Source: Halichondria panicea
Lineage: Eukaryota > Porifera > Demospongiae > Suberitida > Halichondriidae
Assembly (NCBI RefSeq): GCF_963675165.1
Contig: NC_087391.1
Span: forward strand, 577,001-641,000
Direction: 5' to 3'
Length of the DNA: 64,000 bases
Each line of letters opens with the position of its first letter. Positions within the stretch are counted from its first letter, which is position 1. Below are positions 37,295 through 64,000 of the stretch, piece by piece. The notes under the pieces were generated by a model. The model had not been told where the DNA came from. It worked only from the letters and a program-made list of their open reading frames with translations, and searched no databases. The position numbers were made by a program, and so were the translations under genes.

Positions 37295-42184
<4,890 letters not shown>

Positions 42185-43724: not shown

Positions 43725-46700
43725 TTATGTGTAAATGTGATGACTTGAGTAGATAAGCTGTCCAGGTTTGGAGCTGGTCTTGCAGGCCCTGGCCAGATCC
43801 CTCCTCATGCCGTGGTGCAGTGCTCCCACTGAAAACACTCCGAACTCTGTCACACCCTCACTCCACATGGTCGCATTCTGAGCAGAAATGTCTACAGAGA
43901 AGATAATCATGTAATGAAATAAGGCCAGAATTGTATTGACCATTATTGAAGCATAGCTACTGGAACATATCTCAATAGGAAAGAATTTTATGGCCATTAA
44001 TTGCAGATTACTATTGGAGGCTATGTAATGCTGTTAAATTTTATTACGGATTACAGAGACAAAGCTCCCAAGAAGAAAAATAGAGAAATATATTATTTTA
44101 TGCTGCTTTCAATGGGTACACTTTCACACTTTCACTCACAATCTAGGAGAGCAGGGAAGTCTGGTGCTCCATAGCTGGTCTTGGAGTGGAGGTTGTTGAG
44201 TTGTGGCTGTGAAGGTCGCCTCACCATGCACTGAGGGCCGGCAGTCTTGAGCCCCAGCTGCAACAGAGCAGAGGCCAACTCGTCGGGAGGGGAGTTGATG
44301 TTGGTGAGGAAGACTCTCACGTCCAGGTAGCGGTGGACGTGGTCATCCTCGCACAACTCAGACAGATAGTCTGTGAACCACTGTAAAAAGGGGAGGGAGG
44401 ATATTCACTTGTAGAGCTTTAGGTCAGCATGTAGTACACAAACAAGATCAGTTGATGAAACCATACGATTATGTATATTTAGCTATTCTTATCAACTTTA
44501 TGGGAAGACTTGCAGCGTGCCAGTGGTGACAGACAGCCGGTGGTATGGTGGTATACTTACCTCAAAATCGTGTCCACTGGGGACCACCCAGACAATGTAG
44601 AGCTTGGTCAGCACAGGACTGCAGCTGTAACAACACAACCACATACTGAAACACCACCACACACACACACTGCATGCTCAAACCACAAGGGCTGCCCTGA
44701 GGCTATCATAGTGGATGTTGGTGCATACCCTAAGGCAGCAGCTACCACTGTTGCAGTCAGTGGATTGCATAACAAAAAATTCCCAGGCAGCAAAACCATG
44801 CATACTTAACTCAAGCGTGAAGTAGAAAACTAGTATTAATATAGTATTATTGCTGTGGTTTTTCTATGGGGTCAATTCAAGTGGTAGCTAATTAACGTAA
44901 TTATGTACAAGTGGTGTGTTTGGATGGCTACAACCACTTACCCACAATGACAAGCATTTCCTTTCCTGTACTCTAGGAACCTCTTGATGATAGCCTTGGC
45001 AACGTGCGGCCCTGAGTCACCTGCACACACTAGCGTAGAGATCTTGTGGTCAAACAATAGCTGAGAATGATACGCTGGGCCATGCCTGAGCGGAAAAATA
45101 GCATAATTATTTTCAATCAAAATGTATTACAAACAGACAAACAGGTTGATTCTTTCTTTCAAGAAATGTACATTTTCTGTTTCCTATGACAACAATAAAA
45201 CTTACGGTCCAGTGAATTGAACGGCTGAGAGATCAGCCTGGTGTTGGCTTGCCTCTGTGCTCTCTATGGTCACGGCCTCCTTGTTCTTGAGTCTAGAGTC
45301 TTTCCTCTGATTGGTTGAACTGTGCATGCGATAGGGATGTGTCTTGAGGTATTGAAAGGCCTCCATAGTCCACGGCTCAGCAGAGTAGGGAACATGAACT
45401 GTAAGTCTCTGCAGAGAGAGAGAGGGTGGATCACATATATACAGTGTGTTGGATAGCTTACCTTGTCTTTAGGCCCTGAGCTTATCTGACAAGGCTGCCA
45501 GTTGAAGTAACCTGAGTGAGTTTAGGAGACAGGGATAATGTACTGTGAGATGACATGTGAGGTGATAGTATAGGAACAGTCAGGGGAAGAAAGAGTGAGT
45601 GATAATGGATATAGTATTGACTGTACCTATCCAAGGTAGGTTGAGTAGCATGTACTGTCCAGGCTCAAACTTGAACTTAGGAGGTCGTTCCAACTCAATG
45701 ATGGCTGTACGAGACTGATCGTCATAGCGACCCGCACAGTCAACTCGTACAGAGTGACGTGTGATAGCGGTGTAGCGATATACTCTCTCCACTAACACAA
45801 GCAAGGCAAAGGGAAGCAACCACGGCCAATAGGAGTGGTTGAAGTAGCTGACTCCATGGATGACCAGCAGTAGGTAGAAGGCACACAGACACACCCAGTG
45901 AATGATGTAGAACGGAATGAATCGCAACACTCGACGGATGGGACCTATCGAGCTTATTGCTAGAGTTAGGAACAGGAGAGCAATAATGAGGCCAGTGATG
46001 GTAGGACCAAGGTGAGTGAGGAGGTTCTCTGTGAATCGTTCGCTGGTGGAGAGGGGGGCAGTACTATTGTCAATGGTAACGGCAAAGGAGACTAGATGGA
46101 GAGTGACGTGGATCAATGACCAGACGAGGATACCACAGGACACCAGCACGTGCATCAGTGTAGTCCGGGTGAGTGGGAGATACTGTGTGTGTGCGTGCGT
46201 GCGTGCGTGCGGTTAGGGACACAGTTAAAAATGCAAAAAAGCAATTTTTATAAGGCTGCTGGAAACCTTTGTTTTGGTCAAAATTAGCACGTCTCTGCAT
46301 GATCTTGGGATCTAAAACACTATTTTAATTATGAGGGACTTCCTAATACCTCTGCATGAATACAACTTCTAATTGAAATATCCTAACTCTAATTATGAAT
46401 AGTCAACAACTACCTACTAAACTGCTTCCACTATATAAAAGCTAGCGTACCTTGTTCATCCAGACACTGCTCCTCATTGCAGTCACCACAGAGCTGAGAG
46501 TGGGCAGTAACACAAGAACTGTGTTCATGCTCAATACAGGTCCGGCTCCATACGCATACCTCTCCATGCCTAATCGATCCGTACTTACCACACCCACTAC
46601 AAATACAAAGACGTTGAGGAGTACGTAAATGAGTAACCAGATGAGGGAAGTTGCTGAGTTGACAAAGAACCCTTTCGTACTGCTGGACACTCTCTCCCTT

Positions 46701-49700
46701 CGTGACAATTCGCTTCCCTGCGATCCTTTGGTCTTTCCGTACCGAGCGATATTCCCAGACTCGCTAATATAGAGCTGATGTTTTGAGAGGAGCTTGATGA
46801 GGCTAACGAATGGCATCACTCCAGTGGTGCCTGGATCTCCTTCCTGTAGGGGGAGGGAAGTGGTTCCTGGTTAAGTCACAGCTATACAGGCCAGTGTGTC
46901 TGGCTATTGACCCCAAAAGTATTGAATGCATTTGCATTTTTACAGGTGTGACCTCATAAGAGGATCTACCTGCTGAGGTGAGAAGCATAAGGGCATGAGA
47001 ATCACACAAGGTGACCATGACAGCTGTGGGAAGAGCTACAAGCTATAGGCAAACTGTGCAGCACATGGGGCGAGAGTGTTGCCAAGATACGTAAGGTTAC
47101 TCACCCAAAACCATACATATGGAGACCAAAAATATTCCATCAGGTGCCATGGTGTTTACATTGGGAATACAAATTCAGGGCTAAAAACCATACAAGCACT
47201 GTTTACCTTCATGATTCCTGCAACCATTTGCTCAATCTGGTGAGGCTCTACCTCGAAGTCAGTGGCTCTGAGGCTGCTCACAAGCACTCTCTCTAGCTCC
47301 TTCTTTGAGATGTGGGCTGCATTCATCAGGTTGTGAGCGATCTTCATCTGAGCCCCCACTGCCAGAGACTGAGGATGTACATGTGCAGTAGAGCATTCAA
47401 TACAGTCATACATGCATGCACAGTAGCATAGAGAGAAACACACGCACACACACGAATAACTTTCAGCATTGAAACTAGTTCCGGTTAGCCCCCATTTGTC
47501 AAATGTCAGACAAAAATATAGCTGCAGTGCCTAATTATTGACCCTCAAAAGAACCACAATGCAAACAACACCACGAATGTACAACATGTCACCTATAGGG
47601 AATGCTATCCATCTTCCTGTTTCACATGTGATTCCTTCCTTGCATTGTAAAGACCCATAAACACAAACAGGAGATTCACTACCCAGCATGCATGCACTCA
47701 GGTACACGAGGGCTTAGACACTAATTACAGTAAGGGCTCACCCTTTGTTTTAGAGACAGCTCGTTGATGTCACTGGTACTCCCGATGGAGCCCCCTGTCT
47801 TGCGAGTCATCTCAGAGATGACCCCCGTGTAGAACAACTCCCCCTCAATGACGAAGCTAGTCACATGCACCTCGGCTGGGATCTCGTGCCCACTCTTGGT
47901 GAGAGCGCGTACCTCGTACAGTCGAGCGTGCTTCTGTTCCTCTGGAGCATACGAGTGTTTGCGGAGGTACTTGAGAGTGTCGGTGGTTCGATGGTTGATA
48001 CCGAAACGGTGCTTCTCCCGGAAACTAAGAGGAACAATCATCTGCAGAGGAAGTACGTGTGTAGGAAATGAGTGGACTGACAACTTTATAACTGTCATGA
48101 ATGCATTTTTTGGTTTGTACATATAGTAACTAAGCATGAATATATTGAAGATATGGTACCAACTGTTAGCTAATAATATAGCTCAGTTGTACCAGATCCA
48201 GTGTAAAATACTTAGATTACTTATTGCCCTCACTTCTAAGTTGCTGCCAATGGCCTCCCCTGGAGTGTAGCCGAACATCCTTGCAGCACCAGTGCTCCAG
48301 AACACAATGTCTCCCACAGAGTTGGCACACACGATGGCGTCCTGAGATATATGCATCACCGATCGAAAGGCGTTGTCTGTGAACACATCTTGTGTAGTGC
48401 GCATAGTATCATGGCTGATGCTGCGAGGGAGGTTCCCCCCACCAGGGGGCTGGAGATTCACAGGTGTGGGGGGCACAACAGTCGCTTCAATTTGAGCAAC
48501 ACTCACTTTCTTCTTTCGCGGACGAGGGGAGCTCTCAAACATACTGTCTCCGGAGGGTGTTGGGGAGATTCCCCTACGATTTGATTTCTTGACGGCCAGT
48601 CCATTGCCCATATTATGAAACGGACAGCCACCACCAGTGGGAGTAAAATCAGTTCCCTCGAGGGGGGCGGTGGTGATGATGGGAGGGGGCATAAAGGCAC
48701 CCTTCCTCCTACGGCTGATAGGAGCCTCTCCCTGGGGGGTCGTTGCTAGGTGAGCCGGTAGCGTCGTAGCTTTGTCTGTGTCATCTGGAGTTAGAATATC
48801 TGGAAACACGTCATCTACTCCTCGTCGAGCTCTCTTAGAGTGTCGAGTGATTCGTAGGGACCCTCCCTTCTCCGTCTCATCATCGGCAAGGTGGGCGTAG
48901 TGATGATTGAACGTCTTAGCTCTGGTGACCTTTCCACCCACTATGACAACATCGTCGGGACTGCTTTGATCTAAATTGTCTGCACTTTGAACCCTATCGG
49001 CTTGTTCGGAGCTAGCTAAATACATACGCACTTTCTCGTCTGTTCCGAGTTCATCATCAGGAGTGGGCGGCATGGAGCTGTCTTGTTCTGATACCATCCG
49101 ACAGAGGGGGGCTGTCGATACTTCGAGATCATAACTCTCAGACTCTGATTCCTGATCTGGTTTGGAATCCTCCTCGTAATGTCCATTTCCATTCTCATAC
49201 GGCTGGTTGTTGTAGAGAGGGTGGTGTCTGAACTCAAGGTTGAGCTGCTCTCTCGTTCTAGTAGAATCAAGGAAATCCATACTTTTCTTTCGTAGTTGTA
49301 TCATCTTTTCGTCTGAGATAACATTCTTGTCCAAACGTTGCGGACCCTTCAAACTGGAGAAAGAGGAATTTCGAGATTTGAGTGCTATTTCATCTTTAGA
49401 TTCTTTGTTGGTCTGATTCGGGATAGAGTAACTGGAGACCTTCTTTGCAGACCGAGGCACAAAGATGTAGACTACGGCCGCAATGACTAGCCAGACACCG
49501 TACACTGCACAGATGATGTAGGCAGCAAGGGGAAGCACTGGAAACACGGAGAGACCCTGTATGGATAAGATAATCACCATGACATCAATTTCCTCCAAGG
49601 AACAGAAGAGATAGCTACAACAACGCATACATGTACACTGAAACCCTGGTCTATAAAAAAAAAAACAGTTCTGTATATAGCTTGGTTTTTGTCAATTCAA

Positions 49701-51886
49701 TTTAGGCATGTCAATCTAAACATGTCAAAGTGCTGCTAAATCACTCACCAGTAATACATTCCCCATTCCAAAGAAAGTGACAATTTGTCCAGCTTTCTTG
49801 TGCCAAGTCCTTGGCTTTCTGAGCAGGAGCAAGGGCATCCCTAGAGTAGCCAATAGCAACAGGGCAAGCCCCAGCAAACTGTGAATGAGGTAGCGAAAAT
49901 GTTTCCCGTGAGTCAGCTGCACGAATACAATTACAAGAACGAATCCAATGAGAGCGAGCATTATGCCCAGAGGCTGTACGATCTTGTGGGCCAACTTGAC
50001 TTTGTTGTAGGCAAGAAATGCACCAATTGGTAGTAATACTCCGAATGCAGTGGCCATGAGTGCAGCGTGTGTGTAGAGGAGTGGTAGGAGACCAGTAAGA
50101 GGGGGGGAGGGTGCACTCATGACTGTGATGGTGGCTTGCAAGGAAGTGTCCCTCTCACAGGTGACCCGATAGTTGCCAGGAGAGTTGAATTGGTATGACG
50201 TCATGGCTGTATGGAAACAAGATCATTCAGACACTGCACTACAATGGTTTGCATTTCCTAAGAGACCTTTTACATGCAGTGTTTGTGGTCGCATTATGGG
50301 AAATCACTGCGTGTGGTAAAAACATGTTTACAACGATAATTATACAACTCACATTGATCCATTGAGGTCAGTAGGCGATCATCCCTCCACACTTGAGAGG
50401 TACAATTTACAGCCTCTCTCAGTTTCTCCCCCTCCATGCGAACAAATGCCCACTGCAAAACCTCTCCCGTGTTTAGTCGATACTCATTGCTGTGGTTACT
50501 GCAACCACTGCACACTGCGATGCTGTACTGGGCCTGCACGATGCTCATGTTCCCCTGGACCCCAACCTCAGGACATTGGTAGCGATAGTCACCTGGCAGT
50601 GCAGCCACAAAGCCAGCTGAATACAGTACTGTGTGTGCGTGCATGTAGAGAGAGAGGTTCAAGGTGTTGGCCCACAATCTAATTCACACTGTGGAACAGG
50701 TGCTTCTTAGGTGAACTAATTCAATTAGAAAAAGCAAAATACTGCATGTGTGTTGGGCTGTTGAAAAAGGTGCAACAATTAACTCAGTGCACATACATTG
50801 TTGTGAGTCTTGGTCTGTGAAGGTACAATTTCCTCCGTCTACTAGTTCACCAGTAGTTGTCAGTTGCCACTTTAACGGTGTTCCCATAACAACATGGGGT
50901 CCGGCTCTGCAGGTAGCTGCAAGAAATACAATAATTAGTGTGTATATATACAGTTTCAGTATTCACTACCGGTATGTGATTGGGCTAGTCGGTGATCTAT
51001 GGAGGGTGACATGTATTGAGAGGATGCGCATCAATGCAGCCTGTGATTCTCTCCATTAAACCAGCTATTTCCTGTAGGCAACTACGGTTACCTATAGGGT
51101 AATGTCCACAATAGATCCTTGCATGCCAGGGTGCTTACAAGGGATGCAGCTGAGTGCATGCCAGGGTGCTTACAAGGGATGCAGCTGAGTGCTATCGCAG
51201 CAAATGGTGAAAGTGCAATCAACTGTCACCACAAATAATTATAAGCCCCACATTGTGTCTCTTAATTCTCATTACAATGGCTAAATGAATTAGAGCTATT
51301 TTGCATGATGGTGGGGTAGTTTTAATGAATGGAGGGCAAATTGGCAAGCAAGAAATAGCATACCAAATTACGGCAGACCATGCATTATCATGCCATTATC
51401 ACCAAATAAAGCATACTGCACTGTATGGAGCGGGTGTATTTGGAGGAAATGTTGCGGTTTTCGCTGATTAAATTTACTGTGAACATTTATACCCACACAT
51501 TTAATATATCGCATGCATGCATGTGCCAAAAGATCGCTAGCCATTGAAAATTAAATCCGCAAAATCCTTTCTAAAGATCTTTCCGTGAAAGTTTATACCC
51601 TGAAATATACCCGCTATACAGTGTGCAGTGCAATGCAGTAGCTATACACAGGTCTAGTCAGTTTAATATTAATTTTACTGTAAATTCAGCAGAGCTAATA
51701 ATTTTTACGATTATTATAACATATCCACTAACTAGTATTCTGGTGCATGCATACAGTAACACATTAGATCTAGTACATACCTGGTACAGCATCAATAGGG
51801 ATGATGAGTCCATCTCCAGAGCTTGCTTGAGCAAAGGCTGCATGTACAAACCAGCACACTAGCAGGCAGCCACTCCAGCTCTGCAT
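43725..51886 (-). CDS. cytochrome b561 - PAS - ferric reductase/NADPH oxidase-like fusion protein
   Basis: Sixteen exons, complement 51781-51886, 50797-50916, 50353-50616, 49749-50206, 48234-49556, 47742-48041, 47207-47368, 46970-47023, 46451-46843, 45627-46182, 45462-45511, 45206-45408, 44942-45085, 44561-44624, 44140-44380 and 43725-43891; every phase fits, about 1,534 residues. Signal peptide; ectodomain to about 195 with PGDYRYQC and PGNYRVTC (cupredoxin- or Ig-like). Cytochrome b561 core at about 200-345 with histidines 210, 237, 272, 299. Charged linker. PAS domain at about 711-838 (DAIVCANSVGDIVFWSTGAA). Ferric-reductase core from about 960 with histidines 1071/1085 and 1155/1169. FAD-domain strand FEPGQYMLLNLPW. 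NOX-like end with HDFEWFTDYL. The 54-nt exon 8 is the weakest. It likely moves electrons across a membrane under PAS control (inferred). Confidence 0.85.
46183..46212. repeat. GT/GC microsatellite abutting a 3' splice site
   Basis: TGTGTGTGTGCGTGCGTGCG lies directly upstream (on the minus strand) of exon 10 of the fusion gene, so the acceptor is preceded by alternating CA/CG rather than pyrimidines. Confidence 0.88.
51117..51190. repeat. two direct copies of a ~36-bp unit
   Basis: GCATGCCAGGGTGCTTACAA is repeated at a distance of about 36 bp, each copy followed by GGGATGCAGCTGAGTG. It lies in intron 1 of the fusion gene. Confidence 0.85.
51430..51622. mobile_element. MITE-like element, second family, copy 2
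   Basis: Left end GAGCGGGTGTATTT, right end GAAATATACCCGCTATACAG, with GAACATTTATACCCAC and GTGAAAGTTTATACCC inside, in the same order as the copy at 16422. It is in intron 1 of the fusion gene. The left end is decayed. Confidence 0.72.

Positions 51887-52074: not shown

Positions 52075-64000
<11,926 letters not shown>

Follow-up and report, generated by a model that had tools for sequence, protein, structure and literature searches.

The gene described here lies on the minus strand at 43725..51886 of a window of 64,000 nucleotides from the sponge Halichondria panicea (NC_087391.1, positions 577,001 to 641,000; coordinates below count from the first letter of this stretch), and it is almost certainly the DspNOX orthologue of that species. 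DspNOX was named in 2022 by Hewitt and Degnan from A. queenslandica, X. bergquistia, T. wilhelma and E. muelleri (PMC9524095). A literature search for the name gave that paper only, with no other title on the protein under related topics. The gene fuses a cytochrome b561-type core, a PAS domain and a NOX core, an order that a first-pass annotation of this DNA had taken to be undescribed and that had already been published. The new point is that the dehydrogenase half has lost donor-side residues in all six sequences examined, with part of that domain strongly conserved. The best explanation, which we favour with modest confidence, is a DspNOX orthologue with two diheme cores, in which reduced nicotinamide adenine dinucleotide phosphate (NADPH) and flavin adenine dinucleotide (FAD) no longer supply the NOX core in the manner of a NOX.

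One gene with b561-type, PAS and NOX modules

The gene was rebuilt from the sequence as a splice model, supported by genome matches and by five relatives, P0001 to P0005. It starts with the ATG at 51886 and its stop codon ends at 43725; all 14 introns are of the GT-AG type, and the 15 joined exons stay in frame without an internal stop and give 1,520 codons. The limits and the unbroken phase proposed in the first-pass annotation were borne out, and its 16 exons and approximately 1,534 residues were revised to 15 and 1,520. When P0001 was aligned across the exon junctions, 11 of the 14 were free of gaps within five residues and short gaps were seen at three. The acceptor of exon 3 has an alternative site 12 bases further on, and at the junction of exons 2 and 3 the window protein is about 12 residues shorter than P0001; hence, a small exon is possibly missing there.

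The encoded protein consists of a signal peptide, an ectodomain, a five-helix b561-type core, a long linker, a PAS domain, a degenerate EF-hand pair, a NOX core and a dehydrogenase-like half. Hydropathy gave five helices in residues 215-352, in place of the six-helix b561 core assumed earlier, and five in the NOX part, where, by homology, a sixth would lie near residues 1168-1186. From the helix count, the ectodomain would be outside, followed by five helices, a cytosolic middle part with the linker, the PAS domain and the EF-hand-like pair, six helices and a cytosolic tail. In the window protein, the Pfam profiles PAS_9 (E 1.1e-7), PAS (E 1.5e-5) and FAD_binding_8 (PF08022, E 2.2e-7) were over the cut-off; NAD_binding_6 (PF08030) was below it (19.4 vs 22.2 bits) and Cytochrom_B561 and Ferric_reduct were not listed. 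Among the NCBIfam models, only those of PAS type matched, FixL being one of them. In the PDB, residues 876-1470 matched NOX5 best (E 4.5e-37) and residues 706-840 matched FixL (E 6e-7).

The published DspNOX proteins have a PAS domain (PF00989/PF13426), a long disordered region, five extra helices (PF03188 or PF10348), an EF-hand region and a NOX core (PMC9524095). The window protein likewise has five helices of Cyb561/DUF2427 type before the NOX part, a long disordered stretch with PAS/PAS_9, an EF-hand region and a four-histidine (HHHH) NOX core with FAD/NAD domains.

On searching 5.8 billion proteins, with 6,586 candidates scored, eight sequences were returned, of which five were relatives with at least 78% coverage. 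Two of the other three are PAS proteins, and the third is a Babylonia areolata dual oxidase. Three relatives align over 98% of the length at 38-47% identity; for the remaining two, coverage is 78% and 89%. P0001 has 1,528 residues in one uninterrupted frame on a 4,965-base contig; since this frame leaves fewer than 380 bases and the gene here has 14 introns, the contig was taken as a transcript. P0002 is a single frame of 1,388 codons on 5,048 bases, and P0004, with 1,177 residues, starts at the last b561 helix. P0003 and P0005, which are shared with the published family, are the near-identical EukProt gene models Em0019g755a and Em0019g766a, and from the prefix we take them to be from Ephydatia muelleri. 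Both models are incomplete: part of the PAS domain (its second half) is missing in both, the fourth b561 histidine in P0003 and some NOX helices in P0005, these pieces probably being skipped exons. Such gaps may explain why three extra helices, not five, were published for E. muelleri DspNOX, along with two further copies without HHHH (PMC9524095). As far as each extends, P0002 to P0005 have the domain order of P0001. The window protein and P0001 to P0005 are hereafter the family of six sequences, and the dual oxidase P0008 (DUOX) and the EF-hand NOX proteins P0011 to P0013 served as alignment controls. A search with the C-terminal region returned the same five relatives and P0011 to P0013, which are canonical EF-hand NOX proteins. 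By name, the DspNOX proteins of Amphimedon, Tethya and Xestospongia were not among the matches of the full-length, N-terminal and C-terminal searches.

The uninterrupted P0001 and the shared order in four more relatives show that the fusion did not arise from misannotation. It is thus confirmed that b561, PAS and NOX modules are joined in one gene, as the first-pass annotation had claimed. That a neighbouring b561 gene and a PAS-NOX gene were mistakenly read as one is barely credible in view of the single frames of P0001 and P0002 and of exon 5 (48234..49556), which alone carries the last b561 helix, the linker and half of the PAS domain; the same order has also been published from four demosponges (PMC9524095). 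Split genes or a mis-joined model were ruled out by the uninterrupted relatives and by exon 5, and exon 5 had no counterpart in a phage search made to check for contamination.

When the H. panicea genome was searched with the protein, 17 matches were obtained. Of these, 15 lie at the DspNOX locus and together span all 15 exons; the remaining two are weak (E 0.003 and 0.18) and fall in another NOX gene. With 14 candidates scored, this search revealed no second copy, and a distant one could have been overlooked. A stand-alone ectodomain-b561 protein was considered as a source of the fusion and rejected: when residues 1-383 served as query, the sole matches were two stretches of exon 5 (P0009, 97% identical; P0010, 88%). 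This is weak evidence, since scoring was confined to the top 8,000 candidates with lengths about 0.55-1.75 times that of the query.

The NOX membrane core and the dehydrogenase half

The NOX haem core (45763..46672) is encoded by exons 8 (46843-46451) and 9 (46182-45627) and matches the membrane domains of NOX5 and csNOX5. Its histidines, His1057 (46152-46150), His1071 (46110-46108), His1141 (45900-45898) and His1155 (45858-45856), are kept in each family sequence covering them. It was reported that NOX proteins generating reactive oxygen species are marked by His101, His119, Thr178 and Gly179 (PMC3591440); the equivalents His1057, His1075, Thr1109 and Gly1110, with the register to NOX2 numbering set by pattern, are kept in every covering family sequence. 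To judge by these residues, the membrane core is intact, such that the membrane part is that of a NOX and the dehydrogenase part fails as one. The Arg of the oxygen centre (R54 of NOX2; PMC13296129) was also considered as an argument and dropped, since P0011 to P0013 have Phe or Leu in that column, where all six family sequences have Tyr or Phe and where, in the PDB alignment, DUOX1 has Arg and NOX5 has Lys.

The dehydrogenase half is made up of an FAD-lobe-like region (45073..45762; end of exon 9, exons 10, 45511-45462, and 11, 45408-45206, and the start of exon 12), over which PF08022 exceeds the cut-off, and an NADPH-lobe-like region (43725..45072) encoded by exons 12 (45085-44942), 13 (44624-44561), 14 (44380-44140) and 15 (43891-43725). 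In NOX2, the flavin-ring pocket is formed by P339, F340, T341 and R356, and the substitution T341K prevents FAD loading (PMC13296129). Across the family, the HPFT motif is replaced by QPCQ (in the window protein), EPCY, QPCP or HRCY. Accordingly, F340 has become Cys, T341 has become Gln, Tyr or Pro, and R356 has become Pro in all six sequences, with P339 kept in three. All six sequences likewise lack the GxGxxP loop for NADPH, a CG close to the C terminus and a Phe as last residue. All four controls keep HPFT, GxGxxP and CG, with Arg (P0008) or Lys (P0011 to P0013) at the position of R356; the terminal Phe is found in P0008, and P0011 to P0013 end in VFG. Two other NOX loci were found in the same genome: L027, a DUOX that includes a peroxidase part, and L028, another NOX. 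Both have the terminal Phe. L028 has all five patterns (HPFT, HIR, GAGIGVTP, CGP and terminal ENF) and L027 four of them (of HIR, GxGIGxTP, CGP and terminal type), HPFT not being found by pattern.

The loss of donor-site residues is not decay, since nowhere is the protein better conserved than in one part of the dehydrogenase half. Of all 106-residue segments in the alignment, residues 1355-1460 rank first, with a mean identity of 79% to the five relatives; the PAS domain (726-831) is next at 73% to three relatives, ahead of the EF-like region at 65%. By part, identities are 62-70% for the NADPH-lobe-like region, 67-75% for PAS, 43-50% for the NOX helices and 40-43% for the FAD-like region. 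Six cysteines are invariant in the family, namely Cys1239 (45491-45489) in the FAD-lobe-like region, within QPCQ, and Cys1336, 1361, 1363, 1365 and 1395 in the NADPH-lobe-like region; at these positions, only P0008 among the four controls has a Cys, at 1365 alone. The CxCxC at 1361-1365 may be imagined as a metal, cluster or disulphide site. As far as the covered sections of PMC9524095 and the literature search show, the loss of donor-site residues is new.

Such a combination of lost donor-site residues and a strongly conserved part of the tail would also be expected if the NOX half were a dead pseudo-oxidase serving as scaffold or sensor, with b561 as the sole working relay and with PAS and tail reporting the redox or O2 state. 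This is improbable, in that a dead core would not need the haem histidines and the equivalents of His119, Thr178 and Gly179, all of which are kept where covered.

The EF-hand-like pair (residues 866-945; exon 7, 47368-47207, and the start of exon 8; 46754..47368) aligns with NOX5 from residue 876, and ligands are missing from its loops, which were placed by eye. Loop 1 (NLMNAAHISKKE in the window protein) has no acids at positions 1, 3 and 5 and loop 2 (DPGTTGVMPFVS) no Glu at position 12, in all six sequences. Calcium binding is doubtful in all of them, not just in E. muelleri, and the published calcium regulation is not borne out by these loops. In the original description, calcium control was deduced from the EF-hands and superoxide output from the HHHH motif (PMC9524095).

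A rival reading is an active NADPH oxidase regulated by Ca2+ and PAS, as proposed in that paper: electrons would go from NADPH through FAD and two haems to O2, and the b561 part would act as a second ferric reductase, fed by ascorbate, within one polypeptide. It is helped by the HHHH motif and the NOX membrane marks, which no family sequence covering them has lost, and by the profiles FAD_binding_8 and NAD_binding_6, which are over the cut-off in six and five of the six family sequences, respectively. The persisting match to the FAD-domain profile keeps this reading in play; together with the NAD_binding_6 matches it makes flavin or nucleotide binding in an altered manner conceivable. Against it stand the losses, in six of six, of the residues at the FAD pocket, the NADPH loop, the CG and the terminal Phe and of the EF-loop ligands, and we regard an active oxidase of this kind as unlikely, though deserving of attention. 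With these losses, the labels "NADPH oxidase" and "calcium-regulated" become doubtful. DspNOX resembles NOX5 and DUOX in its best PDB match (NOX5) and its membrane signature, and differs from them in the missing FAD-pocket, NADPH-loop, CG, terminal Phe and Ca ligands and in the added b561 and PAS parts; in the sections of PMC9524095 covered, no mention is made of the FAD/NADPH residue loss.

The PAS domain, the b561-type part and the flanking sequence

The PAS domain begins in exon 5 at about 48392 and is completed in exon 6 (47742..48041), where it ends at about 47805. When a profile of four PAS domains was compared with the PDB, FixL came first (E 8e-15). Fourteen PDB sequences were found at E<=0.001, of which 13 are haem-PAS sensors: seven FixL, four DosP, the haem-PAS entries 1s66 and 1v9y (likewise of DosP), and one histidine kinase as the fourteenth. 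The proximal haem histidine of FixL lies on the F helix (His194/200; PMC10765370). His772 (48011-48009) aligns with it and is present in all four family sequences covering it, and none of the six other S-box PAS domains reaching this column (five repeats of P0006 and one in P0007) has a His there. The distal Arg220 of FixL aligns, by eye, with a Tyr in the window protein. It is possible, on the evidence of the aligned histidine, that the DspNOX PAS domain is haem-loaded. The O2 sensors FixL and DosP are its closest PAS relatives of known structure and share the proximal His with it; it differs from them in the Tyr at Arg220 and in being joined to a membrane redox protein rather than to a kinase or phosphodiesterase.

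Exon 1 (51781..51886) carries the start codon and, as read by eye, a signal peptide, and the N terminus is also hydrophobic in P0001, P0003 and P0005. Exons 2 (50916-50797) and 3 (50628-50353) encode most of the ectodomain (50353..50916), with two cupredoxin-like repeats. Its profile matches are weak (Cu nitrite reductase, E 0.07; amicyanin, E 0.94), and of the cupredoxin Cu ligands (Cys, His, His, Met) the Cys is kept by eye, whereas neither His nor Met was seen in the corresponding positions. The ectodomain can be aligned with those of P0001 (33% identity), P0003 (27%) and P0005 (26%) and is N-terminal, unlike in the published account, where two cupredoxin domains are given to E. muelleri alone and "at the C-terminal" (PMC9524095).

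The end of the ectodomain and helices A-D of the b561-type core are encoded by exon 4 (49749..50206) and the fifth helix by exon 5, which continues into a linker of about 350 residues (357-700 being disordered by eye). The histidines His214 (50069-50067), His241 (49988-49986), His276 (49883-49881) and His303 (49802-49800) stand on successive helices and are all present in the window protein, P0001 and P0005; His303 falls in the model gap of P0003, and P0004 begins after the b561 histidines. P0002 has Tyr for His241 and may hence have lost its inner b561 haem; with this exception, the eight haem histidines are kept wherever family sequences cover them. In the topology drawn from the helix count, the outer b561 haem would be held by His214/His276 and the inner one by His241/His303. 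Four well-placed histidines in each haem core, with the PAS domain between the cores, support this side of the first-pass annotation.

Cytochrom_B561 (PF03188) matched none of the six family proteins, nor the locus in the genome search; matches to it have been published for two other sponges (PMC9524095). DUF2427 over the b561-like part was below the cut-off in the window protein (E 0.009) and over it in P0003 and P0005, two of the six. In a comparison by hhalign with L029, the sole PF03188 protein found in the same genome, His241, His276 and His303 aligned with its histidines, though weakly (P 0.0014, probability 17%), and a negative control, presumably a COX15-like stretch, gave P 0.57. A PDB profile search of this part gave no b561 match. 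On balance, the b561 assignment is moderately supported. CYBDOM/FRRS1-type b561 proteins likewise have their ectodomain at the N terminus, ahead of a core of five helices and two His pairs; DspNOX differs in having no DOMON or PF03188 match and no b561 PDB profile match, and in its fusion to PAS-NOX. In the four DOMON loci of the genome fetched for an FRRS1-type comparison, no b561 exon was seen by eye. The genome has 19 DOMON exon matches, many of them clustered (C1:14.86-14.92 and 17.66 Mb, C12:175-181 kb, C4:5.06 Mb; L035-L044). These loci appear to encode copper mono-oxygenase-like (DBH/MOXD) and not FRRS1-type b561 proteins.

Upstream of DspNOX, a divergent neighbour on the plus strand (52075-54000) has its likely ATG 189 bases from the DspNOX start and no Pfam match; its N terminus resembles HEATR5 proteins. 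A minisatellite at 52649-53241 (period 38, 13.2 copies, 99% match), adjoined by a 51-base array, multiplies an apparent exon end and 5' splice site of this neighbour (..GGCAACAAGCT|gtgagt) into a row of donor-like sites. On the other side, positions 41681-42184 of the minus strand hold the beginning of an MCM gene (MCM_N, E 1.5e-16), presumably MCM5.

A proposed mechanism and what it would mean

For a DspNOX with two diheme cores and an altered donor side, the most likely mechanism would be a PAS-gated double outward haem relay with a changed donor side at the NOX core; this is put forward tentatively, with topology, haem loading, electron donor, direction and gating as we infer them. One polypeptide would be embedded in the membrane at two places, by a five-helix b561-type diheme core and a six-helix NOX-type diheme core, and the PAS domain, perhaps haem-loaded and O2- or redox-sensing, would gate two outward electron relays. 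Through the b561 core, electrons would reach an acceptor close to the ectodomain, with cytosolic ascorbate as their probable source, and the NOX core still looks able to send electrons to O2 or a metal outside. The cytosolic dehydrogenase half would no longer draw on NADPH through FAD in the manner of a NOX and may instead be a cysteine-bearing regulatory or docking domain, or receive electrons from another donor. Of the four haems in two relays with a cytosolic sensor, proposed in the first-pass annotation, the eight histidines (with the Tyr of P0002) and the intervening PAS domain were found, and feeding in the NOX manner was not; the self-contained, regulated electron pump is unsupported in its NADPH-driven version, the donor-site residues being lost in six of six.

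Several points weigh against this mechanism, besides the persisting PF08022 and PF08030 matches. The six family sequences perhaps represent only four lineages, P0003 and P0005 being near-identical and P0004 close to both. In human NOX5, the loop corresponding to Cys1361-1365 contains CPSC, hence some of these cysteines may go back further than the family. A proximal His in a PAS domain is necessary, not sufficient, for haem. Ferric_reduct (PF01794) was not listed for any of the six spliced family proteins; in a six-frame genome search it was over the cut-off at the locus, where the matching stretch includes two stops and extends into the intron preceding exon 9. The b561 assignment draws on His spacing, the weak DUF2427 match, one weak hhalign result and the PF03188 matches published for other sponges.

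A bolder and rather doubtful proposal is that DspNOX is a new membrane redox sensor-reductase and not an NADPH oxidase. It would have, in one chain, two diheme relays and an O2-reducing core cut off from NADPH/FAD, with the dehydrogenase half rebuilt as a six-cysteine domain (perhaps of metal or disulphide type) that is fed or signalled from elsewhere, e.g. by ascorbate via b561, and with a fifth element, a haem-PAS O2 sensor, in control.

The published labels of DspNOX, superoxide-producing and calcium-regulated, rest on the four haem histidines and on EF-hand predictions in the sections covered (PMC9524095). With the residues for electron entry from NADPH via FAD missing from all six sequences, counts of sponge NOX proteins from the HHHH motif alone become unsafe, and DspNOX offers a testable case of a NOX with a replaced donor side.

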